Positions 2,665 to 59,786 of a stretch of DNA of 64,000 bases are shown in pieces (the stretch's first letter is position 1; the number at the start of each line of letters is the position of its first letter). The notes beneath the pieces are model-generated. The model was not told the origin of the DNA. It ran no database searches and saw only the letters and a program-made list of their open reading frames with translations. Source of the stretch: Aradus depressus (Eukaryota; Arthropoda; Insecta; Hemiptera; Aradidae); NCBI GenBank assembly GCA_963662175.1, contig OY759214.1:103564115-103628114 (forward strand), written 5' to 3'. Made by a program: the position numbers and the translations under genes.

Positions 2665-3585
2665 TTAAACATATTGTTTTCCAGCTTGAGATCGTTTCTG
2701 TTGCCACTTTACTGATCCCAACTCAGAGTTGAAGTAATCTTTAAATATGTTTCGGACCTCTATAGCTTCGCAACCAGACAAACCACCTGTGTCTTTTAAT
2801 GGAGCAAGTGACTTAGCATCTGAAACTGTAGTTTCTAAGTCTTTTTCAGTCCAGTAACATGAGTCCGTCTTTAAATAATTATGCAAACAACAGGCTGTTA
2901 AAACCACAGAGATCAGGTGCTCCTGAGAAAGGGACAGTTTCTTTTCAAAAATATGAAACCTTCTCACCAAAATTCCAAATGCATTTTCAACTACATTTCT
3001 TACACGACTTATGCGGTAGTTGCAAATTTTTTCTTCTATCTTGCCATGTACATCTTCTTTTGAGTATGGGCGCATGATATTTGTACGAAGAGGAAAAGCT
3101 TCGTCACCAATAATCACATGAGGAAGATAAATATTAGTACCAGTTAATACCTTTGAAGGCGGAAGGTTTAGTGAACCATTTTCCAGCCTTTTTCCCAATT
3201 CAGAAGAATTGAAAATACTTGAATCAGAGTTTTTTCCATAACCACCAACATCTACAAAAATGAACTTTTTATCTGCGTCCACCAATGCTAATAATACGAT
3301 GCTAAAGCACTTTTTATAGCAGAAGTAATCAGCTCCACTGTTATGAGGGGCTTCTATGATGACATGTTTCCGTCCAAAGCACCAACAGCGTTCGGGAAGT
3401 TCCATTTCGTACAAAACCCTCTTTCAATATCTTTCCACATCTCCTCTGTAGGTTGGGGCATCGCGGATGGTTGTAAGCACTTCCATATTGCCTTGCAAGT
3501 TGAATGAACAATTTCTCTTACTGTTGTTAGACCCATTCTGAAAGAGAAAGCCATGGAGCGGTAAGACATTCCAGTTGCAAGAAAC
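2665..3585 (-). pseudogene. Harbinger transposase, exon 2 (DDE_Tnp_4 catalytic part)
   Basis: The acceptor on the minus strand is ttttttttag before 3585. The first codons read FLATGMSYRSMAFSFRMG, then NFPNAVGALDG, the first catalytic aspartate region. A single missing base near 3361 shifts the frame; the other frame continues KHVIIEAPHNSG and carries the second aspartate region (VIIGDEAFPLRTNIMRPYS) and the glutamate region (RNVVENAFGILVRRF). It ends at 2665. HARBI1-type relatives are about 350 residues and the two exons together fit that. One frameshift inactivates it. Confidence 0.88.
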
Positions 3586-4762: not shown

Positions 4763-5922
4763 TGTAATGTAATCAATTTGCGACTGCATCTAAATATATT
4801 GTAAAATATAAAGTTTGTAAGGTTAATAGTATTTGTGGACAGAAATGGTGAAATAAACCCTTAATTCTATAGGCGGGCTAGGGAGACCCGGATCAGGTAG
4901 AAGGAGCTTATCCCATTTTGCCTCCGTCAAGAAAGAAGCTGACAGGATGCAATAAAAGAAGGCACCAACAGTCACCTGGAGGAATATTTATATAGCTTTT
5001 ACAACCAGGATTTTACAATCTGGCTACAGTCAGGTACCAGATTGGAGCTCCAAGCCCGTTGTTAGTGGCCCATAAAGCAATCTGGAATGTCCAAATTAAA
5101 GTGGATAGAGGTCAAATGGATTGCCTCCCAGGCAAACAATTTGCTTTCCGAAATGGCCGAGGAGAAGAAAGAAGGAGAAGTAGTGGGGGAAGATGGCAGT
5201 CCGAGTTCGAAGTGAGGGCTCAAGTTCATTCAGTTCCAGTCGAGACCCACCAGAGTGTCAGTTACAGTCTGGATCCAAGAGTCAGAGGGTTCACTTCCTG
5301 GAGTCCTAGTTGAGAGAGGGAAGTGGCCAGACTCTGATCCACCAGTTGATGTCTGAGTCCTGATCCAGTAGCCCTCGAGAGAAGATCCAGCCATCATCCA
5401 ACCCCAGGAGTTCAGGAGGAACTCAGCCAGCCGACAGCCCTCTTTCTACCCTCTGGCCATCGCAGACCTCCCTGGCATCCAATCATCAGTTATCGTCTCC
5501 AGCCCCTGTCTCTACAGCGTACATAGCAATAAGGTTTATATTATATATTATAATTTTTATTTTTATTTTAAGTATTAATTTTTGTTTTAGCATAAATATA
5601 ATTTTTTTTAAATGAATTTCTAAATTTTAGTTGTTTGTTCCTATGCTATATCCCAGGTCAGTTATGATTTAACAATTTGGTTTTTCAAAACTCTTTTCGC
5701 TGACGAATCCTTTCGCCTTTGGTTATAGAAATTCAATTTATATATTAAAATCAGTAAATGTAAATGATCGTCTAGTACATAAGCGATCTGGCATCCTATG
5801 GACATTTTTTTTAGTAAAGACAAAGCAATTTTATAGAAAATCTCCGCAGCTTATATAAAAAGTAAAGTCAAATACCATTTTTTATTATTAAAAACCGCGA
5901 CGCGCAACTCATAAATATTACA
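4763..5922 (+). repeat. Left LTR
   Basis: 1160 bp, same length as the right LTR, starting TG and ending CA. Its 3' third carries an AT-rich stretch. The small ORF at 5059-5313 is an LTR passenger present identically in the right LTR and has no known domain. Confidence 0.93.
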
Positions 5923-7045: not shown

Positions 7046-9286
7046 TAGCCAAATTTTATAGTAAATATCCTTTTATGAAACTCGAATGAGTTATAAACAC
7101 GACAGACAGACTTACAAAACAAAATTTAAAAAGAGAATTAAGAGACAAAGATTTAGACAGAAAACAACAGAAGACTTTGAATAAATGAATATGTGGAGTA
7201 AATAGTTGAATGAAAGTGAGAATTATTTTTGGTAAGAGTGAAATTTATAAATGTTATTTTTGAAAACTGGATTTATTTGAAATTTATATATAATTTTTTT
7301 TATTGGAGTTAGTTTGAATTTTATAAGTTGCATGGAAGTTTGTGTTGATTGAGACTTTGGAAGTGAGTTAATTTTTTTTTAGTAAGTTTAGAAATATAAA
7401 CGTGATTCATTTTAGATTTGGGAAGTTTTTCTTTTTGTTGGGTTGATTTTTTTTTGATGATGAATTTTTATGCGTTAGATTTATTGATAATATTTTTGAA
7501 CAATTGGAGTTATTTGAAATTTTATATATTGCATTTATTTATAGATCGATTGAGGCTTTGGAAGAGAACTAAATAGCAAGTTAATTTTTTTTAGTATTTT
7601 TTTTGATATAGGATTAATTTATTTCGGTAAATTTTTTTGGGAGAAGATATTTTTATAAATAAGATTTAGTGATAATAGTTCGAATTTATATATAATAATT
7701 TTGCGTTTTTTTTTATTTAATTATATGGTGGTGGTTCTTTGATTAGTTAGTATTATTAAGAGTTTGAAAAGAAATATTTATGAAGTTCGTTTAATTTTGT
7801 TTATGGACCAGTTTGAATTATTTATACAGATTTTGAAGAAGTAAGAAAGTTTTTTTTTAGTAAGTGATTGATATATTTGATTTTTTATATGGGTAAATTT
7901 TTAAATAAAAAGTAATTGAGAAAAGTGGTTGAAATAAGAATTTTTTTTTTTAATTGATAAAAGGAGAGATGAATTAAGAAGTATTATTGGTCAAGACACA
8001 ATATTGTTTTTAAGAATTTAATGGGAAGAAAGGAATTTAAGATTTTAAAATACGAAATTATATTTGGAAATTTTTTAACTAGAAGTTTTTGTTTTATTGA
8101 TAGGGAGATGCTTGTGGTCGTTTTTTTTTTGTGAAGCCATTTAAGATAGAAAATGACAGTTTTAAAAAGGGTAAGGTAGGAAAGAAAGGAATAACATGCG
8201 CGGTATAAAAGGTTTTATAAATAATTTTATCCAAGATTGATTCATAAAAGAGCAAAGAATAATTAAAAAGGTATATAGGGATGTTTTTTTTTTGTTTTGT
8301 ATGTGACGTTAGTAAAACTTCGCGGAGAATTAATATGGAGAAAAGTTAATATGTGAAAATGAGCTATTTGTTTAAGAGTATATAGATGAGAATTTTATTT
8401 ATTATGAGATTGCCTACCCAGAGAAGGGAGGAATCTATCTGTACTACGACGATATAATTATGAGATGGCCTACCCAAGGAAGGGAGGATCCATGAAATCT
8501 ACGACGATATAAAGTAATAATATGTGTTAGAAACATATGAGATATTTTTTTGAGTATATGAGATTATTTTTTGATGTTAAGAGAAATAAAGAATAGGTAG
8601 GGAATGGGTGAAGACCTGAGTAGCGTCACATATAAATAATAAGAAAAATATATACTTATAAAAGGGGGGATATATTGAATAAATAAGAAAATAAGATGGA
8701 TTTTGATTGCTCAAATGTAGATAATAGGGTAAAATATTTATAAAATGAGACCATAGAATGAAAGTTTTTGAATTTAGAAGGCAACCCGTTTTCTTTTTGT
8801 CATTTATTAAGGTCGACCCAGATTTTTTGAGAAATTTAAGTATTAAAGTGTTATTAAGTGAATTGGTTATCCATATTGTAGAGAAGATTAGTTATGTTTT
8901 TTTTTTTGGCATAGGATAATTTAATTACTGTAAAAATAAGAAGAAAGGACGAAAATTATGTAAAATAAATATTGAAGTTTTTGTACCCATAGTAAAATTT
9001 AATAATTTGTTTTCTTTTATATTAATTATAAATTTCTTGTAAATATATATTATTCAAACCCTAGTTAGTAAGTTCTGTTATTTGTTTTTGAAATTCGTGT
9101 ACAGTTTAAGAATAAAGGAGATGATTTTTTTTGTTAATTATAGATTTAATATAAAGATAAGTTGTTTAAACATTAGTTTTTTTTTTGTATAACTTTTTTT
9201 TTTGTTTCGTTTTTTTTAATGGAAATTATTGTAAGTAGAAATAAAATTGTCCTACGTACAATTTTAGTAAACTAAGGGGAGGGTAA

Positions 9287-10446
9287 TGTAATGTAATCAA
9301 TTTGCGACTGCATCTAAATATATTGTAAAATATAAAGTTTGTAAGGTTAATAGTATTTGTGGACAGAAATGGTGAAATAAACCCTTAATTCTATAGGCGG
9401 GCTAGGGAGACCCGGATCAGGTAGAAGGAGCTTATCCCATTTTGCCTCCGTCAAGAAAGAAGCTGACAGGATGCAATAAAAGAAGGCACCAACAGTCACC
9501 TGGAGGAATATTTATATAGCTTTTACAACCAGGATTTTACAATCTGGCTACAGTCAGGTACCAGATTGGAGCTCCAAGCCCGTTGTTAGTGGCCCATAAA
9601 GCAATCTGGAATGTCCAAATTAAAGTGGATAGAGGTCAAATGGATTGCCTCCCAGGCAAACAATTTGCTTTCCGAAATGGCCGAGGAGAAGAAAGAAGGA
9701 GAAGTAGTGGGGGAAGATGGCAGTCCGAGTTCGAAGTGAGGGCTCAAGTTCATTCAGTTCCAGTCGAGACCCACCAGAGTGTCAGTTACAGTCTGGATCC
9801 AAGAGTCAGAGGGTTCACTTCCTGGAGTCCTAGTTGAGAGAGGGAAGTGGCCAGACTCTGATCCACCAGTTGATGTCTGAGTCCTGATCCAGTAGCCCTC
9901 GAGAGAAGATCCAGCCATCATCCAACCCCAGGAGTTCAGGAGGAACTCAGCCAGCCGACAGCCCTCTTTCTACCCTCTGGCCATCGCAGACCTCCCTGGC
10001 ATCCAATCATCAGTTATCGTCTCCAGCCCCTGTCTCTACAGCGTACATAGCAATAAGGTTTATATTATATATTATAATTTTTATTTTTATTTTAAGTATT
10101 AATTTTTGTTTTAGCATAAATATAATTTTTTTTAAATGAATTTCTAAATTTTAGTTGTTTGTTCCTATGCTATATCCCAGGTCAGTTATGATTTAACAAT
10201 TTGGTTTTTCAAAACTCTTTTCGCTGACGAATCCTTTCGCCTTTGGTTATAGAAATTCAATTTATATATTAAAATCAGTAAATGTAAATGATCGTCTAGT
10301 ACATAAGCGATCTGGCATCCTATGGACATTTTTTTTAGTAAAGACAAAGCAATTTTATAGAAAATCTCCGCAGCTTATATAAAAAGTAAAGTCAAATACC
10401 ATTTTTTATTATTAAAAACCGCGACGCGCAACTCTTAAATATTACA
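9287..10446 (+). repeat. Right LTR
   Basis: Near-identical copy of 4763-5922 at an offset of 4524 bp, preceded by the purine-rich tract at about 9268-9286. Confidence 0.93.
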
Positions 10447-19404: not shown

Positions 19405-20480
19405 GTTGCATGCGGAACGCCTGGCAGTTCTGTCCCCTGTGCACGTCCTCACTTGACCGCAGTCCACATCACTCTCCGCCAGGCAGCTTTGTCTCCTTTG
19501 CGCGTCCCAACGTGATCTCAGTCCACATCACTCTCCGCCTGGCAGTTCTGTCCAATATGCGCATCCTCACTTGACCTCAGTCCACATCACTCTCCGCCAG
19601 GCAGCTTTGTCTCCTTTGCGCGTCCCAACGTGATCTCAGTCACATCACTCTCCGCCAGGCAGTTCTGTCCAATATGCGCATCCTCACTTGACCTCAGTCC
19701 ACATCGCTCTCCGCCAGGCAGCTTTGTCTCCTTTGCGCGTCCCAACGTGATCTCAGTCCACATCACTCTCCGCCAGGCAGCTTTGTCTCCTTTGCGCGTC
19801 CCAACGTGATCTCAGTCCACATCACTCTCCGCCAGGCAGCTTTGTCTCCTTTGCGCGTCCCAACGTGATCTCAGTCCACATCACTCTCCGCCAGGCAGTT
19901 CTGTCCAATATGCGCATCCTCACTTGACCGCAGTCCACATCACTCTCCGCCAGGCAGCTTTGTCTCCTTTGCGCGTCCCAACGTGATCTCAGTCCACATC
20001 ACTCTCCGCCAGGCAGTTCTGTCCAATATGCGCATCCTCACTTGACCTCAGTCCACATCACTCTCCGCCAGGCAGCTTTGTCTCCTTTGCGCGTCCCAAC
20101 GTGATCTCAGTCCACATCACTCTCCGCCAGGCAGTTCTGTCCAATATGCGCATCCTCACTTGACCTCAGTCCACATCACTCTCCGCCAGGCAGCTTTGTC
20201 TCCTTTGCGCGTCCCAACGTGATCTCAGTCCACATCACTCTCCGCCAGGCAGTTCTGTCCAATATGCGCATCCTCACTTGACCTCAGTCCACATCACTCT
20301 CTGCCAGGCAGCTCTGCCTCTTCATGCGTCCCAACGTCAGCTCAGTTCACATCACTTTCCGCCAAGCAGTTCTGTAGTTGTGCGCGTCCTCACTTGACCT
20401 TAGTCCACATCACTCTCTGCCAAACAGTTCTGTCCGCTGTGCGCGTCCTCACTTTAGTCCACATCACTCACCGCCAGGCT
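19405..20480 (+). repeat. 59-bp satellite, two alternating monomer types
   Basis: About 18 monomers ending CACATCACTCTCCGCCAG. Type 1 has GCTTTGTCTCCTTTGCGCGT and AACGTGATCTCAG; type 2 has TTCTGTCCAATATGCGCAT and ACTTGACCTCAG. They often alternate 1-2, so a 118-bp higher-order unit exists, broken by a run of type 1 near 19730-19880. It ends about 140 nt before exon A. Confidence 0.92.
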
Positions 20481-20619
20481 TCCTCTGGTATTATCTTATA
20501 GAATTAGGACCACTGCCCAAACTTTCCAAAGACCATTGAAAGCCTTATTTGACATTTTATATGCTCTTTGAATTTTTAACTGTGTTAAATCAAGATTTAT
20601 TATAACTTTTTTGTTTTAG

Positions 20620-20648
20620 CTCTACATAAGAATACATTCGGTGATTTG
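20620..20648 (+). CDS. Host gene exon A (29 nt)
   Basis: The acceptor follows a T-rich tract (cttttttgttttag). The frame enters with one carried base and reads LHKNTFGDL, then donor gtaggc. A stronger in-phase donor, gtatgt after CCGCTG near 20700, would extend the exon by about 17 codons in the same frame, so the 3' boundary is ambiguous. It lies about 140 nt after the 59-bp satellite. It is the weakest exon of the chain because it is short, but its outgoing phase 0 fits exon B. Confidence 0.5.
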
Positions 20649-21107
20649 GTAGGCCAAGCAAAGAAGATCTACTGGTGTTTGAAATTGTTCCTATTTCCGC
20701 TGGTATGTTGACTGAAATTTTACTTGTGTTTCGATCCCGATGCAAAAACCATGCTACCATGAAGGAAGTATATTTGCAAAAAAAAAATGGTCAGTGTTTT
20801 TCCCACAGACGTTTTTTTTTTTTTGATTTTATGAATTATAATTTTTTTTGCTCAGAATTCCGATCTCTGTAAGATCCCAAATGCGGCTCAATAAGATGGG
20901 ATCTAAGTGTACGTGTATATAGATACTGTTTTTATGAATTGTATGTATTTCGTTACAGCAAACACTCCAGAGAATGCCCCCACTCCGTTGTTCCCTCTCC
21001 GACCATCTTATTCTTGCTTACCTCTTTCTTGATCGCACAGCTTCGGAGTGGAACTCGGGAAAGTTAGAAGAAACGGACTATAACGTATTTTTGAATCTGT
21101 TTTGTAG

Positions 21108-21198
21108 GATCGTATTATTGACACACCTGAAAAATACAACAAAAGGCGGACCGAGGCTCTGAAAAAAATTAACGAAATATACATCGAAATAAATAAAG
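21108..21198 (+). CDS. Host gene exon B (91 nt)
   Basis: The acceptor is ctgttttgtag and the donor G|gtaaat. Only one of the three frames is open: it begins DRIIDTPEKYNKRR and ends EIYIEINK plus one base (phase 1). The composition suggests a charged alpha helix. It lies about 130 nt before the 150-bp tandem array, whose exon-like units enter in the same phase 1. Confidence 0.75.
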
Positions 21199-21329
21199 GT
21201 AAATTAAAAATTTTCATTTTGATTTTTGACTATTGTATACAAAAATCTGTTTCCGGAGAGGGGGGAGAGAAAAATGAGACTTATTCGTTGACTTTAGAAA
21301 AGGGTAGAGAAGGTGAAAAAAAACTCACT

Positions 21330-24300
21330 CAAGGCCTAGTGTTCATTTGAAAATACATGGTAAGAGGGACTATCTAGAGAAGTCTCAGAGTATTGTCCAG
21401 AGCATACCTAACAACTATCACTCCGCAGAACGCTCTCAGGTGGACAAACAACTGAACGGGGAGGGGTGGGGAGCATCACGAAGGCTTGATGTCCATTTGA
21501 GAATACCTGGTAAGAGGGACTATCGAGAGAAGTCTCAGGGTATTGTCCAGAGCATGCCTAACAACTATCACTCCGCAGAAAGCTCTCGGGTGGACAAACA
21601 ACTGAACAGGGAGGGGTGGGGAGCCTGAAGAAGGCTTAGTGTTCATTTGAAAATACCTGGTAAGAGGGACTATCTAGAGAAGTCTCAGGGTATTGTCCAG
21701 AGCATACCTAACAACTATCACTCCGCAGAAAGCTCTCGGGCGGACAAACAACTGAACAGGGAGGGGTGGGGAGCCTGAAGAAGGCTTAGTGTTCATTTGA
21801 AAATACCTGGTAAGAGGGACTATCTAGACATACCTAACAACTATCACTCCGCAGAAAGCTCTCAAGGTGCACAAACAACTGAACAGGGAGGGGTGGGGAG
21901 CCTGAAGAAGGCTTAGTGTTCATTTGAAAATACCTGGTAAGAGGGACTATCTAGAGAAGTCTCAAGGTATTGTCCAGAGCATGCCTAACAACTATCACTC
22001 CGCAGAAAGCTCTCGGGTGGACAAACAACTGAACAGGGAGGGGTGGGGAGCCTCAAGAAGGCTTAGTGTTCATTTGAAAATACCTGGTAAGAGGGACTAT
22101 CTAGAGAAGTCTCAGGGTATTGTCCAGAGCATGCCTAACAACTATCACTCCGCAGAAAGCTCTTGGGTGGACACACGACTGAAAGAGGAGGGGTGGGGAG
22201 CCTCAGAAGGCTTAGTGTTCATTTGAAAATACCTGGTAAGAGGGACTATCTAGAGAAGTCTCAGGGTATTGTCCAGAGCATACCTAACAACTATCACTCC
22301 GCAGAAAGCTCTCGGGTGGACAAACAACTGAACAGGGAGGGGTGGGGAGCCTCAAGAAGGCTTAGTGTTCATTTGAAAATACCTGGTAAGAGGGACTATC
22401 TAGAGAAGTCTCAGGGTATTGTCCAGAGCATACCTAACAACTATCACTCCGCAGAAAGCTCTCGGGTGGACACACGACTGAAAGGGGAGGGGTGGGGAGC
22501 CTCAAGAAGGCTTAGTGTTTATTTGAAAATACCTGGTAAGAGGGACTATCTAGAGAAGTCTCAGGGTATTGTCCAGAGCATGCCTAACAACTATCACTCC
22601 GCAGAAAGCTCTCGGGTGGACAAACAACTGAACAGGGAGGGGTGGGGAGCCTCAAGAAGGCTTAGTGTTCATTTGAAAATACCTGGTAAGAGGGACTATC
22701 TAGAGAAGTCTCAGGGTATTGTCCAGAGCATGCCTAACAACTATCACTCCGCAGAAAGCTCTCGGGTGGACAAACAACTGAACAGGGAGGGGTGGGGAGC
22801 TCGAAGAAGGCTTAGTGTTCATTTGAAAATACCTGGTAAGAGGGACTATCTAGAGAAGTCTCAGGGTATTGTCCAGAGCATGCCTAACAACTATCACTCC
22901 GCAGAAAGCTCTCGGGTGGACACACGACTGAAAGGGGAGGGGTGGGGAGCCTCAAGAAGGCTTAGTGTTCATTTGAAAATACCTGGTAAGAGGGACTATC
23001 TAGAGAAGCCTCAGGGTATTGTCCAGAGCATGCCTAACAACTATCACTCCGCAGAAAGCTCTCGGGTGGACAAACAACTGAACAGGGAGGGGTGGGGAGC
23101 TCGAAGAAGGCTTAGTGTTCATTTGAAAATACCTGGTAAGAGGGACTATCTAGAGAAGTCTCAGGGTATTGTCCAGAGCATGCCTAACAACTATCACTCC
23201 GCAGAAAGCTCTCGGGTGGACAAACAACTGAACAGGGAGGGGTGGGGAGCCTCAAGAAGGCTTAGTGTTCATTTGAAAATACCTGGTAAGAGGGACTATC
23301 TAGAGAAGTCTCAGGGTATTGTCCAGAGCATACCTAACAACTATCACTCCGCAGAAAGCTCTCGGGTGGACAAACAACTGAACAGGGAGGGGTGGGGAGC
23401 CTCAAGAAGGCTTAGTGTTCATTTGAAAATACCTGGTAAGAGGGACTATCTAGAGAAGTCTCAGGGTATTGTCCAGAGCATGCCTAACAACTATCACTCC
23501 GCAGAAAGCTCTCGGGTGGACAAACAACTGAACAGGGAGGGGTGGGGAGCTCGAAGAAGGCTTAGTGTTCATTTGAAAATACCTGGTAAGAGGGACTATC
23601 TAGAGAAGTCTCAGGGTATTGTCCAGAGCATGCCTAACAACTATCACTCCGCAGAAAGCTCTCGGGTGGACACACGACTGAAAGGGGAGGGGTGGGGAGC
23701 TCGAAGAAGGCTTAGTGTTCATTTGAAAATACCTGGTAAGAGGGACTATCTAGAGAAGTCTCAGGGTATTGTCCAGAGCATGCCTAACAACTATCACTCC
23801 GCAGAAAGCTCTCGGGTGGACAAACAACTGAACAGGGAGGGGTGGGGAGCTCGAAGAAGGCTTAGTGTTCATTTGAAAATACCTGGTAAGAGGGACTATC
23901 TAGAGAAGTCTCAGGGTATTGTCCAGAGCATGCCTAACAACTATCACTCCGCAGAAAGCTCTCGGGTGGACAAACAACTGAACAGGGAGGGGTGGGGAGC
24001 TCGAAGAAGGCTTAGTGTTCATTTGAAAATACCTGGTAAGAGGGACTATCTAGAGAAGTCTCAGGGTATTGTCCAGAGCATGCCTAACAACTATCACTCC
24101 GCAGAAAGCTCTCGGGTGGACACACGACTGAAAGGGGAGGGGTGGGGAGCCTCAAGAAGGCTTAGTGTTCATTTGAAAATACCTGGTAAGAGGGACTATC
24201 TAGAGAAGTCTCAGGGTATTGTCCAGAGTATACCTAACAACTATCACTCCGCAGAAAGCTCTCGGGTGGACAAACAACTGAACAGGGAGGGGTGGGGAGC

Positions 24301-27300
24301 CTCAAGAAGGCTTAGTGTTCATTTGAAAATACCTGGTAAGAGGGACTATCTAGAGAAGTCTCAGGGTATTGTCCAGAGCATACCTAACAACTATCACTCC
24401 GCAGAAAGCTCTCGGGTGGACAAACAACTGAACAGGGAGGGGTGGGGAGCCTCAAGAAGGCTTAGTGTTTATTTGAAAATACCTGGTAAGAGGGACTATC
24501 TAGAGAAGTCTCAGGGTATTGTCCAGAGCATGCCTAACAACTATCACTCCGCAGAAAGCTCTCGGGTGGACAAACAACTGAACAGGGAGGGGTGGGGAGC
24601 CTCAAGAAGGCTTAGTGTTCATTTGAAAATACCTGGTAAGAGGGACTATCTAGAGAAGTCTCAGGGTATTGTCCAGAGCATGCCTAACAACTATCACTCC
24701 GCAGAAAGCTCTCGGGTGGACAAACAACTGAACAGGGAGGGGTGGGGAGCCTCAAGAAGGCTTAGTGTTCATTTGAAAATACCTGGTAAGAGGGACTATC
24801 TAGAGAAGTCTCAGGGTATTGTCCAGAGCATGCCTAACAACTATCACTCCGCAGAAAGCTCTCGGGTGGACAAACAACTGAACAGGGAGGGGTGGGGAGC
24901 TCGAAGAAGGCTTAGTGTTCATTTGAAAATACCTGGTAAGAGGGACTATCTAGAGAAGTCTCAGGGTATTGTCCAGAGCATGCCTAACAACTATCACTCC
25001 GCAGAAAGCTCTCGGGTGGACAAACAACTGAACAGGGAGGGGTGGGGAGCTCGAAGAAGGCTTAGTGTTCATTTGAAAATACCTGGTAAGAGGGACTATC
25101 TAGAGAAGTCTCAGGGTATTGTCCAGAGCATGCCTAACAACTATCACTCCGCAGAAAGCTCTCGGGTGGACACACGACTGAAAGGGGAGGGGTGGGGAGC
25201 CTCAAGAAGGCTTAGTGTTCATTTGAAAATACCTGGTAAGAGGGACTATCTAGAGAAGTCTCAGGGTATTGTCCAGAGTATACCTAACAACTATCACTCC
25301 GCAGAAAGCTCTCGGGTGGACAAACAACTGAACAGGGAGGGGTGGGGAGCCTCAAGAAGGCTTAGTGTTCATTTGAAAATACCTGGTAAGAGGGACTATC
25401 TAGAGAAGTCTCAGGGTATTGTCCAGAGCATACCTAACAACTATCACTCCGCAGAAAGCTCTCGGGTGGACAAACAACTGAACAGGGAGGGGTGGGGAGC
25501 CTCAAGAAGGCTTAGTGTTTATTTGAAAATACCTGGTAAGAGGGACTATCTAGAGAAGTCTCAGGGTATTGTCCAGAGCATGCCTAACAACTATCACTCC
25601 GCAGAAAGCTCTCGGGTGGACAAACAACTGAACAGGGAGGGGTGGGGAGCCTCAAGAAGGCTTAGTGTTCATTTGAAAATACCCGGTAAGAGGGACTATC
25701 TAGAGAAGTCTCAGGGTATTGTCCAGAGCATGCCTAACAACTATCACTCCGCAGAAAGCTCTCGGGTGGACAAACAACTGAACAGGGAGGGGTGGGGAGC
25801 TCGAAGAAGGCTTAGTGTTCATTTGAAAATACCTGGTAAGAGGGACTATCTAGAGAAGTCTCAGGGTATTGTCCAGAGCATGCCTAACAACTATCACTCC
25901 GCAGAAAGCTCTCGGGTGGACACACGACTGAAAGGGGAGGGGTGGGGAGCCTCAAGAAGGCTTAGTGTTCATTTGAAAATACCTGGTAAGAGGGACTATC
26001 TAGAGAAGCCTCAGGGTATTGTCCAGAGCATGCCTAACAACTATCACTCCGCAGAAAGCTCTCGGGTGGACAAACAACTGAACAGGGAGGGGTGGGGAGC
26101 TCGAAGAAGGCTTAGTGTTCATTTGAAAATACCTGGTAAGAAGGACTATCTAGAGAAGTCTCAGGGTATTGTCCAGAGCATGCCTAACAACTATCACTCC
26201 GCAGAAAGCTCTCGGGTGGACACACGACTGAAAGGGGAGGGGTGGGGAGCCTCAAGAAGGCTTAGTGTTCATTTGAAAATACCTGGTAAGAGGGACTATC
26301 TAGAGAAGTCTCAGGGTATTGTCCAGAGCATACCTAACAACTATCACTCCGCAGAAAGCTCTCGGGTGGACAAACAACTGAACAGGGAGGGGTGGGGAGC
26401 CTCAAGAAGGCTTAGTGTTCATTTGAAAATACCTGGTAAGAGGGACTATCTAGAGAAGTCTCAGGGTATTGTCCAGAGCATACCTAACAACTATCACTCC
26501 GCAGAAAGCTCTCGGGTGGACAAACAACTGAACAGGGAGGGGTGGGGAGCCTCAAGAAGGCTTAGTGTTCATTTGAAAATACCTGGTAAGAGGGACTATC
26601 TAGAGAAGTCTCAGGGTATTGTCCAGAGCATGCCTAACAACTATCACTCCGCAGAAAGCTCTCGGGTGGACAAACAACTGAACAGGGAGGGGTGGGGAGC
26701 TCGAAGAAGGCTTAGTGTTCATTTGAAAATACCTGGTAAGAGGGACTATCTAGAGAAGTCTCAGGGTATTGTCCAGAGCATGCCTAACAACTATCACTCC
26801 GCAGAAAGCTCTCGGGTGGACACACGACTGAAAGGGGAGGGGTGGGGAGCTCGAAGAAGGCTTAGTGTTCATTTGAAAATACCTGGTAAGAGGGACTATC
26901 TAGAGAAGTCTCAGGGTATTGTCCAGAGCATGCCTAACAACTATCACTCCGCAGAAAGCTCTCGGGTGGACACACGACTGAAAGGGGAGGGGTGGGGAGC
27001 CTCAAGAAGGCTTAGTGTTCATTTGAAAATACCTGGTAAGAGGGACTATCTAGAGAAGTCTCAGGGTATTGTCCAGAGCATGCCTAACAACTATCACTCC
27101 GCAGAAAGCTCTCGGGTGGACAAACAACTGAACAGGGAGGGGTGGGGAGCCTCAAGAAGGCTTAGTGTTCATTTGAAAATACCTGGTAAGAGGGACTATC
27201 TAGAGAAGTCTCAGGGTATTGTCCAGAGCATGCCTAACAACTATCACTCCGCAGAAAGCTCTCGGGTGGACAAACAACTGAACAGGGAGGGGTGGGGAGC

Positions 27301-28255
27301 TCGAAGAAGGCTTAGTGTTCATTTGAAAATACCTGGTAAGAGGGACTATCTAGAGAAGTCTCAGGGTATTGTCCAGAGCATGCCTAACAACTATCACTCC
27401 GCAGAAAGCTCTCGGGTGGACAAACAACTGAACAGGGAGGGGTGGGGAGCTCGAAGAAGGCTTAGTGTTCATTTGAAAATACCTGGTAAGAGGGACTATC
27501 TAGAGAAGTCTCAGGGTATTGTCCAGAGCATGCCTAACAACTATCACTCCGCAGAAAGCTCTCGGGTGGACACACGACTGAAAGGGGAGGGGTGGGGAGC
27601 CTCAAGAAGGCTTAGTGTTCATTTGAAAATACCTGGTAAGAGGGACTATCTAGAGAAGTCTCAGGGTATTGTCCAGAGTATACCTAACAACTATCACTCC
27701 GCAGAAAGCTCTCGGGTGGACAAACAGCTGAACAGGGAGGGGTGGGGAGCCTCAAGAAGGCTTAGTGTTCATTTGAAAATACCTGGTAAGAGGGACTATC
27801 TAGAGAAGTCTCAGGTTATTGTCCAGAGCATGCCTAACAACTATCACTCCGCAGAAAGCTCTCGGGTGGACAAACAACTGATGAGGGAGGGGTGGGGAGC
27901 ATCACGAAGGCTTAGTGTTCATTTGAAAATACCTGGTAAGAGGGACTATCTAGAGAAGTCTCAGGGTATTGTCCAGAGCATGCCTAACAACTATCACTCC
28001 GCAGAAAGCTCTCGGGTGGACAAACAACTGAACAGGGAGGGGTGGGGAGCCTGAAGAAGGCTTAGTGTTCATTTGAAAATACCTGGTAAGAGGGACTATC
28101 TAGACATACCTAACAACTATCACTCCGCAGAAAGCTCTGAAGGTGGACAAACAACTGAACAGGGAGGGGTGGGGAGCCTGAAGAAGGCTTAGTGTTCATT
28201 TGAAAATACCTGGTAAGAGGGACTATCTAGAGAAGTCTCAGGGTATTGTCCAGAG
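21330..28255 (+). repeat. 150-bp tandem array (about 46 units) with exon/intron-like units
   Basis: Period is 150 bp, unbroken, between exons B and C of the host gene. Units near both edges are degenerate (TGA in gcctgaag, short deletions, single-base shifts). From about 22300 to 27880 the units are nearly identical. Each unit has G|GTAAGA, a CTAAC 16-17 nt before CAG, and so a 69-nt intron-like part and an 81-nt part. Read straight through, the array is open for 1963 codons (50-residue repeat); with the 69-nt part removed it is also open (27-residue repeat containing VDKQLNREGWGASRR). Two main variants alternate: KQLNREG and TRLKGEG. The long ORF follows automatically from homogenised stop-free units, so coding status is unproven. 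Confidence 0.9.
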
Positions 28256-28608
28256 CATACTGAACCGGTTGACCAGATTGAGGATGGGGTCGGCAGGCTC
28301 AGTAGTATACTACTTCGAGCTGCCGATGAGACCATCCCCAAGAAGGTAAACCGGATCAGGAAGGTACCCTGGTGGGGTGAGGACCTTATCCTCGCCAAGA
28401 AGGCTGTATCGTGCCAGGAGAAGGTGTCAGCTGTGCCAAAACCAAAACCCACTCCAGAGGGTAATACGGAGGGAGGAGTACCGGCAGCTTAGCAAGGCTT
28501 ATGGTAGCTGACATTTCTATAATTTGTAAATAAAATCGTTAGGCCTCCCTTTTTCCCCGACGATTCGGCGATGGTGTCGTGGCCGGAGGTCGGCCACCCA
28601 AAAAAAAA
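28256..28608 (+). pseudogene. LINE-like fragment with poly(A) tail
   Basis: Directly after the 150-bp array one frame reads VDQIEDGVGRLSSILLRAAD, ETIPKKVNRIRKVPWWGEDL and ILAKKAV, similar to the linker between endonuclease and RT in R1/I-type LINEs (the PWW motif). It then passes to a non-coding GC-rich tail and a run of A ending at about 28620. The RT itself is absent, so it is internally deleted or rearranged. Confidence 0.5.
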
Positions 28609-28620
28609 AAAAAAAAAAAA

Positions 28621-31530
28621 AGTAGTCCTATCAACCGAGAGGGGTATAAAACTGTTACAGTCCTATCTACAGAAAAGGGTATAAAGCTATTACAGCCCTA
28701 TCTACAGACAGGGGCATGAAGCTATTACAGTCCTATCTACAGAGAGAGGTATAAAGCTATTACAGTCCTATCTACAGACATCCAGATATAACTATCCTTG
28801 TATTCCCTTCCCCCAAATATAATTATTTATGGATGGCACTTGAGATTTTCATGAAATCTGCACGTTGGCAATTTAGATCCCACAAAAATGAATGAATGTA
28901 AAGTTTTGAAGCTATTACAGGTATAAAGCTATTACAGTCCTATCTACAGAGCGAGGTATAAAGCTATTACAGTCCTATCTACAGAGAGGGGTGAAAAGCT
29001 ATTACGGTCCTAACTACAAAGAGGGGTATAAAGCTATTACTGTCCTATCTACAGAGAGGGGCATAAAGCTAATACTGTCCTACCTACAGAGGGGTATAAA
29101 GCTATTACAGTCCTAGCTACAGAGAGGCATAATGCTATTACAGTCCTATCTACAGAGAGGGGTATAAAGCTATTAAAGTCCTATCTACAGAGAGGGGTAT
29201 AAAGCTATTACTGTCCTATCTACAGAGAGGGGTATAAAGCTATTACAGTCCTATCTACAGAGAGGGGTATAAAGCTATTACAGTCCGATCTACAGAGAGG
29301 GGGAAGAGGCTATTACAGCCCTATCTACAGAGAGGGGTATAAAGTTATTAGAGTCCTATCTACACAGAGGGGTATAAAGCTATTACAGTCCTATCTACAG
29401 AGAGGGGTATAAAACAATTCCAGTCCTATCTACAGAGAAGGGTATGTAGCTATTACAGTCCTATCAACAGAGAGGGGTATAAAGCTATTATAGTCCTATC
29501 TAAAGAGAGGGGCATAAAACTATTACAGTCCTATATACAGAGAGGCATAAAGCTTTTACAGTCCTATCTACAGGGAGGCATAAAGCTATTACAGTCCTAT
29601 CTACAGAGAGGGGCATAAAGCTATTATAGTCCTATCTAAAGAGAGGGGTATAAAGCTATTACTGTCCTGTCTACAGAGAGAAGCATAGAGCTATTATAGT
29701 CCTATCTAAAGAGAGGGGCACAGAGCTATTACAGTCCTATCTACAGAGAGGGGCATAAAGCTATTACTGTCCTATCTACAGAGAGGGGCATAAAGCTATT
29801 ACTGTTCTATCTACAGAGAGTGGTATAAAGCTATTTCAGTCCTATCTACAGAGAGGGGTATAAAGCTATTACTGTCCTGTCTACAGAGAGGGGCATAAAG
29901 CTATTATAGTCCTATCTAAAGAGAGAGGCACAGAGCTATTACAGTCCTATCTACAGAGAGGGGTATAAAGCTATTACTGTCCTATCTACAGAAAGGGGTA
30001 TAAAGCTATTACAGTCCTATATACAGAGAGGGGTATAAAGGTATTACAGTCCGATCTACAGAGAGGGGGAAGAGGCTATTACAGCCCTATCTACAGAGAG
30101 GGGTATAAAGTTATTAGTCCTATCTACACTGAGGGGTATAAAGCTATTACAGTCCTAGCTACAGAGAGGCATAATGCTATTACAGTCCTATCTACAGAGA
30201 GGGGTATAAAGCTATTAAAGTCCTATCTATAGAGAGGGGTATAAAGCTATTACTGTCCCATCTACAGAATGGGGTATAAAGCTATTACAGTCCTATATAC
30301 AGAGAGTGGTATAAAGCTATTTCAGTCCTATATAGAGAGAGGGGTATAAAGCTATTACAGTCCTTGAAATGCTCCAAGGGAAGAATGAATGAATGGGTTC
30401 TTTTCCATTGAACAGCCTACAGACTGTCTGATGCTGCACGGAAGGACAGGGCTTGCAAATATTGAGTTATACTCTATATAACTACCCCTATACCTGGGAA
30501 AGTAAACATTAATGAGTATTGTTGGTTAGGGACCTTTTTTCTTATATTTATTACTTTTATAAGAACTGTTTTCGTCTGTTTTTGGAACTTGTCGGCTCTT
30601 TTTAAAATGAATAAATAAAGAAGTATAAGTAAAGTTATGTATATTTCAAATACATTATAATATATTTCAATCATTACAACAAATTTTGATCATCATAATA
30701 TATTTTCAGCGTAAATTACATTTGTATATTATACTAATAATATATTTTTTTTCTTTTAGAATCGTTAGAGCCAATCTTCCAGAGGATGTCAGGGAATATA
30801 CAACGTTCATATACCAATTATGAACCAACCGAAAGTACGTCACTGACATCCAGATATAACTATCCTTGTATTCCCTTCCCCCAAATATAATTATTTATGG
30901 ATGGCACTTTGAGATTTTCATGAAATCTGCACGTTGGCAATTTAGATCCCACAAAAATGAATGAATGTAAAGTTTTGAAGCTATTACAGGTATAAAGCTA
31001 TTACAGTCCTATCTACAGAGCGAGGTATAAAGCTATTACAGTCCTATCTACAGAGAGGGGTGAAAAGCTATTACGGTCCTAACTACAAAGAGGGGTATAA
31101 AGCTATTACTGTCCTATCTACAGAGAGGGGCATAAAGCTAATACTGTCCTACCTACAGAGGGGTATAAAGCTATTACAGTCCTAGCTACAGAGAGGCATA
31201 ATGCTATTACAGTCCTATCTACAGAGAGGGGTATAAAGCTATTAAAGTCCTATCTACAGAGAGGGGTATAAAGCTATTACTGTCCTATCTACAGAGAGGG
31301 GTATAAAGCTATTACAGTCCTATCTACAGAGAGGGGTATAAAGCTATTACAGTCCGATCTACAGAGAGGGGGAAGAGGCTATTACAGCCCTATCTACAGA
31401 GAGGGGTATAAAGTTATTAGAGTCCTATCTACACAGAGGGGTATAAAGCTATTACAGTCCTATATACAGAGAGTGGTATAAAGCTATTTCAGTCCTATAT
31501 AGAGAGAGGGGTATAAAGCTATTACAGTCC
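28621..31530 (+). repeat. 35-bp minisatellite in three blocks with segmental duplication
   Basis: The unit GGGGTATAAAGCTATTACAG plus TCCTATCTACAGAGA occurs at 28621-28775, 28905-30365 and 30985-31530. The blocks are separated by a duplicated non-repeat segment (CATCCAGATATAACTATCC at 28778 and about 30847). The right-hand flank (TCCTTGAAATGCTCCAAGGG, 30362) recurs at 31528. So a segment including exon C was duplicated in tandem, and the second minisatellite block is shorter. Confidence 0.9.
30760..30834 (+). CDS. Host gene exon C (75 nt)
   Basis: The acceptor is preceded by a strong pyrimidine tract (tttttttcttttag) and the donor is A|gtacgt. With the G carried from exon B, the frame reads E, then SLEPIFQRMSGNIQRS, and ends EPTE plus one base. 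A diverged second copy of this exon lies at about 31909-31960, within a local segmental duplication. Confidence 0.75.
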
Positions 31531-31898: not shown

Positions 31899-31962
31899 TT
31901 CTTTTGGGAAGTATAAAATCAGGTTTCAAAAGGCTGTCAGGAAATAAACCACGTAAATAGCC
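31899..31962 (+). pseudogene. Decayed second copy of exon C
   Basis: Upstream intron sequence matches that of exon C, but the acceptor AG has become GG. Aligned codon by codon without gaps, exon C SLEPIFQRMSGNIQRS corresponds to SIKSGFKRLSGNKPRK followed by TAG. The F-x-R-x-SGN-x-x-R core is kept. The rest of the exon and its donor are deleted. Confidence 0.7.
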
Positions 31963-33314
31963 TTGTAATCCCTTCACCCAAACAACATTATTTATGGATG
32001 GCACTTTGACATTTTTATGAAATCTGCACATTGGGAATTTAGCCCCAAAAAAATTAATGATGATATCCCTTCTCTGAATGTATTACAACAGAAATTTCAA
32101 ATTTCTGATATGACTATAACATGACATTTACCTACCAAGTTTGTACGGATCACTATCCCTCCCATCTCAAACCGGCATTACTCGATATAAAAAGGAATAA
32201 GAAAGTAATAAAGGACATCAATGGGTTTCTTTTCACCGTTGTGGTCACAATGTAATTCTGAAAGTAATGGGGGGGAATGGTATGTAAAACGTGGAGGGTA
32301 GGTATAAGAAAGTTCAGAAAATTTTCAGATAAAAATCGAAGGAAATCAGTCAGCTTCACACAATCAACTAATACTTTTATTTTAGTTTACAATATAATAT
32401 TATATTTCAATTTTATGTTTCCCATAATTTCCCTCAATAGAAGAACAATATATATAATATATATAACTTTCATAAATATAATAAATAACTTTCAAACTAT
32501 CAAAAATAAATTATTAAAAAAATTTCCAACTTTTATATTCTGATTACAACTTTTAAATTTTTGCAGTTGGGCAACTGAAGAAGGCAACTGAACTTTGTGA
32601 TTTATTGCTTGAATCCATTACAATTAGCTCATCATCTCTGGAGTTTAAATAGATTTCTAAGCTCCCCAGAGAAAATTGTCAATTGTGTAGTCAAAATACA
32701 ACTTTTTTGAAGCTTTTCACATAAATTATAGGTCAAGGGTTTTTAAAAATCTATTTATATATATATTTACTAATTTTATTTTTTAGTTAAAGTTGAATTT
32801 TAGGAGACTGTAAATTATTTTAAAGATCTACCACCTTGTCGGGACTAAAAAATGTTTAATATTAAAATAACAATGTTTAAAATTGTTTGCATCCATAGTG
32901 ACTTCGGTATCACATAACGGACAGATCGGGTTTTTTTGACACCAATTCTTTTTACGTGTCCTTGGAGGCCCGGAAGCGAAAAGTTAATTTATTCGTGAAT
33001 CACCGACGATTTTTAATTTATTGTCTCCGCAGGATACAAACAGTTAAATACTTTTAAAATAGTTTTCTTTTTTTCTTCTGATGACTAATTTCATTCTAAT
33101 TGCTTCTTCATTGCCATACTCAACAAATAAATTAGTTTTTAAGAAAGCAACAGATACATACACAGTTGAAATTTGGATTTCATATAAATTAGATTCACTG
33201 TATACCGTGCATACTACATCTGAATACGAACAAACAAGAACGCCCGTTTTGAAACTCCAGAAATTAATAACAAAACTCCTTGTACATTTAACTCAACAGT
33301 ATTTTCTTTTCTAG
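31963..33314. other. Intron C-D, unique AT-rich DNA
   Basis: Starts with a third partial copy of the duplicated flank (CCTTGTAATCCCTTCACCC). The rest shows no convincing gene; short ORFs at 32153-32543 and 33081-33314 lack domains. Confidence 0.5.
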
Positions 33315-58619: not shown

Positions 58620-59420
58620 TTCCGTCATACACAATACATCAAACGCTCCCACAACACACAAACATGCAGCATTTTATTCACTACCTACTTCATAGAGCCT
58701 ACACAATACCATTAAACGAAGACAACAGAAACATAGAGTTAGGTATCATTATTAGCATAGCGAAAGAAAACGGATACACTAGACACACTATTGACAAGAT
58801 AAAACGTAAAGTCATTAACAAAATACATTTAAAAGAACTTTCAAAATTAGACACAACAAATAATACAAGGACTAAGGAATGGGTGAGTTTACCATATTTT
58901 GGAAAAATGTCTGAACAAATAGGCAATATATTCAAAAAAGAGGATTTTCGGGTTTCAGAACAAACAATACAATATACAAATATCTGAACAACACTAAAGA
59001 CCAAACTAAAAGTGAAGAAAAAAGTGGAATTTACCAACTAGAATGTAATTCTTGCAATCTAGTTTATGTTGGTCAAACTGGAAGATCATTTAAGAACAAG
59101 GTAAAAGAACACATATCAGAAATAGGGTTACACACTGACACAACATACAACTCAGTAAAATCAACTTTCGCCCAAGATATCAACGAAAACAAACACCATT
59201 TTGACATAAACACAGGCATACAATATCTACATTTTTGTGACAAAGGTACATTACTCAACTCACTGGAACAACTAGAAATAAACAGAGCGCTACAAAAAGG
59301 CAAGTGTATGAACGATCAGACCAATCTCACATATTCATTCACCCCTTTTATCGCCAATATTATCTCAGTCTCTGTGTATCCGTACTTACTTTCAAGAGCC
59401 TATGTATTTTATTCTATATT
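58620..59420 (+). pseudogene. Penelope-like RT end and GIY-YIG endonuclease, frameshifted
   Basis: First frame: HFIHYLLHRAYTIPLNEDNR, IAKENGYTRHTIDKIKRKVI and WVSLPYFGKMSEQIGNIFKK, the RT thumb/linker typical of Penelope-like elements. A shift near 58950 leads to NNTIYKYLNNTKDQTKS, then the endonuclease GIYQLECNSCNLVYVGQTGR (GIY and YVG motifs, with CxxC before), KVKEHISE, and DKGTLLNSLEQLEINRALQK, whose EINR holds the conserved glutamate. It ends LLSRAYVFYSIF. The RT palm is missing. Confidence 0.85.
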
Positions 59421-59786
59421 TTGATTTTCATTTGTATATTTATTAGTCTTTGATCTATTTCATGTATGCATACATAATATGTATTCTTCAAATGTGTGGA
59501 GCGTTGGAGATCAGATTTCGTCTCGGGGTGGGGTCTTAATGGTGGAGGCTTTGGGATGGTGTGGGTTGATTAAAATACACATATGATGTATACCATACTG
59601 CTTCGGAGTTTTTGTTATAGGGATTTCGATTTGGGACGGAGTTTCGTTTTTGATGTTTCACATATTTGAAGAATTAACGGTACAGGAGGGATAGGAAACC
59701 CCCATGGGGGGCTGAGTAAGGGTACCTACCTACCGGTTAGATTGTAAAAATAGTTGAACTTCCATTTAGTATTTGTTAAGTCGTGG

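Follow-up and report, generated by a model that had tools for sequence, protein, structure and literature searches.

Tandem arrays within single introns are known from ABCA7 (an intronic VNTR; PMC5954066) and from intron 6 of TERT (VNTR6-1; PMC11830802), and according to the available excerpts of these papers both may affect splicing. Whole exon-intron units, repeated and homogenised, are described for Argiope MaSp2 in the accessible part of PMC9779670, where the flagelliform spidroins are also cited. The bicycle effector genes of aphids, phylloxerids, and coccids have internal exons that are almost all of phase 2, according to the available text of PMC9168663.

The satellite described here, from the hemipteran Aradus depressus, resembles the ABCA7 and TERT VNTRs in being a tandem array of variable copy number in one intron, but copy number varies between people in those genes and between gene copies here. 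Unlike those VNTRs, as far as the excerpts describe them (PMC5954066, PMC11830802), the 150-bp unit itself carries a donor, a branch-like site, and an acceptor in frame, and its effect on splicing is putative only. As in the spider silk genes (PMC9779670), an exon-like and an intron-like part together form a tandem unit that is near-identical within a gene, and conversion between genes is proposed in both cases. Silk exons are expressed, whereas the present units are at most putative exons, and their within-array changes look neutral. Silk introns, in the same text, diverge rapidly between genes, while the intron-like part of the present unit is well shared between genes. The bicycle genes (PMC9168663) bear a partial likeness to the host gene rather than to the satellite, in that they evolve fast and their numerous small internal exons share one phase. 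In the host gene, of which only three exons are known, exon B runs from phase 0 to 1 and exon C from phase 1 to 1, and bicycle membership was ruled out because the exon phases differ (B starts in phase 0, C in phase 1). No paper combining an intronic VNTR with a cryptic exon was found in the literature collection searched.

In the present study we analyse a window, that is, the whole stretch of 64,000 nucleotides at C1:103564115-103628114. A first-pass annotation had noted that the units look like amplified exon-intron pairs in the right phase of the host gene, which would encode a variable protein domain, and had named a satellite with accidental decoy splice sites as the alternative. The anatomy and phase arithmetic of that interpretation stand, whereas selection for a protein does not emerge from the data. 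We give roughly two chances in three to the reading of the array as satellite DNA that sits in an intron of a gene from a clustered, fast-evolving family and is removed with that intron. With forty phase-matched, splice-like units in one intron, the locus offers a clean natural test of how long runs of decoy exons are treated by the spliceosome, which may ignore or use them. Use of the units would mean that satellite DNA can give rise directly to a variable protein domain; otherwise the locus stands as a caution that an open frame of 1971 codons and matching phases can occur without coding.

The exons of the host gene were defined as short segments bounded by AG and GT, by comparing the window with three paralogous loci on C1, L009, L010, and L011 (Table 1). 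Judged from this comparison, the predicted host gene is a member of a clustered, fast-evolving family with microexons of 66–91 nt. Exon B is read as GAT CGT ATT..., with one nucleotide left over at its 3' end; its copies are 76–93% identical, and the pooled pN/pS is 0.36 over the first 60 nt and 0.62 over the whole exon. Exon A gave a pN/pS of 1.01 on five changes in a single pair (window and L009), with no sign of constraint in that pair. Exon C is hypervariable, the window copy and those at 7104-7169 of L009 and 7613-7678 of L011 being 39–47% identical, whereas the stretches on both sides reach 67–88%. The copy in L011 measures 66 nt and agrees in phase; exon C was not recognised in the 9 kb of L010 examined. 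Strong diversifying selection or exon replacement are possible causes of this hypervariability. As far as the comparison with the paralogues shows, the phase is 1 both at the end of exon B and at the start of exon C, as the first-pass annotation had predicted. The joined peptide of exons A, B, and C had no relative within the limits of the search tool. The exon C region recurs at ~31900-31990, in a duplicated segment with 35-bp arrays, where its acceptor AG is altered (TTTTGGG vs TTTTAG).

Table 1. Positions of the predicted exons, the satellite array, and the adjoining element in the window.
Feature	Position	Strand	Description
Exon A, predicted host gene	20620..20702	+	83 nt, ending in phase 0; L009 has the AG/GT-bounded segment too
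Exon B, predicted host gene	21108..21198	+	91 nt, phase 0 to 1; copies in L009, L010, and L011
Satellite array	21331..28254	+	Partial head, 46 whole units, partial tail; head-to-tail, near-identical units
Example of 69-nt intron-like part of one unit	22686..22754	+	GTAAGA ... CTAAC ... CCGCAG
Example of 81-nt exon-like part	22755..22835	+	Open in phase 1-1; G-rich stretch mid-part
5'-truncated LINE-like tail with poly(A)	28255..28622	+	Adjoins the array; belongs to a dispersed family distinct from the unit
Exon C, predicted host gene	30760..30834	+	75 nt, phase 1-1; splice sites and flanking introns common to L009 and L011

The predicted intron between exons B and C (21199-30759, 9561 nt) contains the array, the LINE-like tail, and 35-bp arrays, and the paralogues back the placement of the array within this single intron. 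Further upstream, positions 20480-20639 are identical to L009 (3072 onwards) at 160 of 160 bases, after which identity falls to 94% and then to 79–87%. This tract is shared by gene copies about 240 kb apart, reaches into exon A, and is likely the product of gene conversion.

Units were cut at the donor anchor. A recount of the window gave 47 donor anchors, which delimit 46 whole units; 43 of these measure 150 bp, two measure 127 bp, and one 149 bp. CTAAC and CTCCGCAG occur in 46 of 46 units. The donor is present in every unit by construction, because the units were cut there, and their regular spacing leaves no room for a donor-less unit. The annotated presence of a donor, CTAAC, and CCGCAG in every unit is thereby borne out, with the same reservation for the donor. 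So is the proposed split into 69 and 81 nt, both multiples of three: the intron-like part has its 69 nt in 44 units and is shortened to 45 nt in two, and the exon-like part measures 81 nt in 43 units, 82 nt in two, and 80 nt in one. Of the 46 window units, 40 have an exon-like part that is open in phase 1-1, which matches the earlier estimate of about 40 copies, and stops or frame breaks are found in the other six. An in-frame-type TGA variant occurs in five window units and an odd length in three. The GC content of the unit is 0.48–0.49, against 0.29–0.40 in the host exons.

The 46 units fall into 21 types. Blocks of units recur, with units 17-21 reappearing as 24-28 and units 23-26 as 39-42, and the identity of units plotted against lag peaks at lag 7 (0.21). 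Units with GCATCACG, units with TGA, and a 127-bp unit are found near both array ends. Unequal exchange with homogenisation in the middle of an array is a standard model for such repeats, and the recurring blocks and the odd variants at both ends fit it. The two 127-bp units are placed as if the array had expanded between copies of an old block. These units, at 21810-21936 and 28086-28212, are very similar and share a 24-nt deletion and a 1-nt insertion. Predicted RNA folding of the unit was unremarkable (z 0.73, 0.91, and 0.27), and Rfam gave zero matches inside the array up to E 5. On these two grounds a structured RNA or ribozyme was ruled out.

The genome (697.7 Mb) was searched twice, with a 601-base query from the array and with a 181-base query around the L010 unit. 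Among the best candidates scored, the satellite is present in at least four gene copies, those of the window, L009, L010, and L011, within 1.3 Mb of one contig; this list is a lower bound because the searches score best candidates only and skip very common words. All four gene copies lie on the plus strand, and the first stretch of unit sequence is located just 3' of exon B in each. The first-pass annotation had named many unrelated loci in either orientation as evidence against its own interpretation, and the genome-wide search showed none of these among the best candidates scored. The copy number of the unit differs among the four gene copies, with 46 in the window, about 6 in L009, about 1.7 in L010, and about 1.35 in L011, where an extra 95-bp fragment of the unit follows 3.6 kb further on. 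The exon-like part is open in 3/6 units of L009, 0/1 of L010, and 1/1 of L011, giving 4/8 paralogous units in total. Stops or frame breaks affect 3/6 units of L009, 1/1 of L010, and 0/1 of L011. In the last four units of L009 a compensated pair of indels restores the length of 81 nt, and three of the four are open, while the single open copy of L011 is exactly 81 nt long.

Five representative units from the four loci were compared. The intron-like core is 91–99% identical and gapless, whereas the exon-like part is 81–93% identical with up to 15 gap columns. In a four-unit comparison the core is 94–99% identical, where exon B is 76–93% identical. The most extreme of the ten unit pairs has substitutions at 1/69 core positions against 13/74 in the exon-like part (p 0.0012), and within the window the contrast in variable sites is weak (8/69 vs 19/81, p 0.087). 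The intron 3' of exon B is 52–72% identical in a crude 60-nt comparison that runs into the unit in L011, and about 87% identical between the window and L009 (21200-21279). An argument that the better conserved part is intron-like, and that the exon-like part is hence not an exon, was dropped because exon C likewise shows more variation than its introns; exon B lacks this pattern. Between gene copies the core of the units at 21360-28254 is more alike than exon B or the rest of the unit, through either conversion or constraint. Conversion can explain this high identity of the core, and the G-rich stretch of the exon-like part may be hypermutable.

Differences in the exon-like part were counted with the three units of odd length set aside, which leaves 43 window units of 150 bp, and each variable site was classed alone against the consensus. 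There were 6 silent changes, 14 changing the amino acid, and 1 stop, for expected fractions of 0.25, 0.70, and 0.04 (p 0.80). At position 118, the change scored as a 'stop' is carried by 17 of the 150-bp units, where it produces a genuine TGA in 3 and arginine in 14. The differences within the array are a neutral mix of changing and silent substitutions, as expected without selection, and show no selection for a protein. With this mix and the stops and indels in paralogous units, the variable domain of 27-residue repeats suggested in the first-pass annotation is not supported. Between loci, the pooled pN/pS of the exon-like part is 0.58 on few changes, near the value for the whole of exon B and below that of exon A. 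This set comprised the window consensus, the first window unit, L010 (which has a stop), and L011, L009 being left out because of its indels. The ratio speaks mildly against the intronic-satellite reading. When the intron-like part was translated through, 0 silent changes were found among the between-locus differences counted.

In the centre of the array one frame (22139-28054) runs for 1971 codons without a stop. Among 3000 dinucleotide shuffles of the unit, 830 were open all round in one or more of the six frames. The frame read through from exon B stops at 21348, upstream of the first donor, and also stops before or at the start of the array in L009 and L010; in L011 it is open through the unit to 3764. 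Coding by read-through is ruled out in the window on account of the stop at 21348 and of the frequency of open frames in the shuffles. The suggestion that units could be retained unspliced without a frame break fails in the window, as read-through from exon B, at the same stop. No protein relative of the repeat frame appeared among 7988 candidates scored, under a length limit that excludes short proteins. A Pfam search with the first 500 residues returned SidC_C, UvrA_DNA-bind, DUF4611, and NCU-G1, which are taken as repeat artefacts since no single stretch was significant.

Donors were scored with a home-made table of untrained weights. On this scale the unit donor equals that of exon B (5.27), while 4/6 donors of L009 read GTAACA and score 1.53. 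The unit acceptor has pyrimidines at 10/16 positions and T at only 4/16; the four host acceptors compared have 12–13 pyrimidines and 11–12 T in 15–16 bases. At the unit's own donor score, the splice pattern together with an open 3n exon arose in 3/2000 shuffled units with an exact CTAAC and in 21/2000 with a degenerate branch site. A laxer donor gave 72/2000, and 14/2000 when a pyrimidine minimum was added. We also chose 19 arrays, 14 in the window and 5 in L009 and L010, and screened one unit of each on both strands. Only the 150-bp array has the splice pattern, on the sense strand of the gene; it is absent from the 18 others at this donor score and is thus ruled out as a generic property of arrays. 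The comparison favours the unit because the donor cut-off, in the array test as in the first two shuffle settings, was the unit's own score and was set post hoc.

The intronic satellite is favoured because of the neutral mix of changes, the stops and frame breaks in units, and the T-poor acceptor, and further because of the weak donors of L009, the GC content unlike that of host exons, the stop at 21348, and the recurring blocks. The likely conversion tract nearby, the ordinary folding, and the empty Rfam result in the array also count in its favour. The founder would have been one intron segment in which a good donor was combined with a branch-like CTAAC and a CAG, presumably multiplied through unequal crossing-over and local duplication and homogenised by conversion within and between loci. 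The 9.56-kb intron would normally be excised by splicing exon B to exon C, with the splice sites of the units rarely or never used. Several observations go against this satellite reading. The splice pattern is alone among the 19 arrays and lies on the sense strand, the 81-nt phase 1-1 form fits the host microexons of 66–91 nt, and the unit donor matches that of exon B in score. The between-locus pN/pS of 0.58, the compensated indels of L009, the open read-through of L011, and the greater variability of the exon-like than of the intron-like part, as in exon C, point the same way. Alternatively, the founder may go back to a genuine phase-1 microexon which, freed from coding constraint, multiplied together with its short intron as a trapped exon-intron pair, some units perhaps being included today as splicing noise. 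The presence at all four loci of an 81-nt phase 1-1 segment bounded by splice-like ends agrees with such a history, as do the exact, open copy in L011 and the local duplication of the exon C region itself, one copy of which lacks the acceptor AG. The DNA search, however, showed no free-standing single copy elsewhere in the genome among its best candidates, and we regard a decayed founder as unlikely. The confidence figures given to the four readings weighed here overlap slightly.

A working exon-intron array, in which a variable number of 81-nt phase 1-1 exons with 69-nt introns is spliced between B and C to give a domain of 27-residue repeats, is rather improbable. It would account for the 40 open units of 46 and the matching phases, with B leaving and C entering in phase 1, for the restriction of the unit to this type of intron and to one strand, for a pattern absent from the other tested arrays in a host with similar microexons, and for a pN/pS like that of the whole of exon B. 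By analogy, the MaSp2 silk genes indicate that repeated, homogenised exon-intron units do exist (available part of PMC9779670). Against it stand the neutral mix among units, the stops and indels of paralogous units, the T-poor acceptor, the composition unlike host exons, and a repeat frame with neither a relative among the scored candidates nor a significant Pfam stretch. It is at best a speculative thought that a hypervariable microexon family turned a phase-1 microexon and a short intron into a 46-copy satellite with 40 open, phase-matched units, so that transcripts could include any number of 27-residue units; if true, a length-variable domain would be made by satellite turnover and not by ordinary gene evolution. 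We consider it very unlikely that the 69-nt core and its flanks are conserved as a splicing or chromatin element, the splice-like motifs being a by-product. The core of 94–99% against 76–93% for exon B in four units and the extreme pair of 1/69 against 13/74 would suit such an element, but the range of the core widens to 91–99% with the fifth unit, and the within-window contrast is weak. Moreover, the likely conversion tract in the same gene can explain the identity, the G-rich stretch is perhaps hypermutable, and the unit has neither a stable fold nor an Rfam match in the array.

The LINE-like tail gave 1334 first-look candidates, of which the best 40 were scored; they are found on many contigs and both strands, and most of the matches listed cover the first 250 query bases. 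A LINE origin of the unit is ruled out because the tail belongs to a dispersed family, while the copies of the unit among the best candidates scored all occur 3' of exon B. A 59-bp satellite is present in the window (19418-20479), L009 (2793-3071), and L011 (1165-2405), upstream of exon A or of its expected place, so that more than one part of the gene has shared tandem arrays. Two copies of a ~1-kb repeat in the window (4763-5783 and 9280-10307) are each about 94% identical to L009 7979-9001 and share an identical open stretch of 315 bases. Open frames of DDE_Tnp_4 transposase-like and GIY-YIG-containing type are also found in the window (2665-3420, minus strand; 58915-59421, plus strand).
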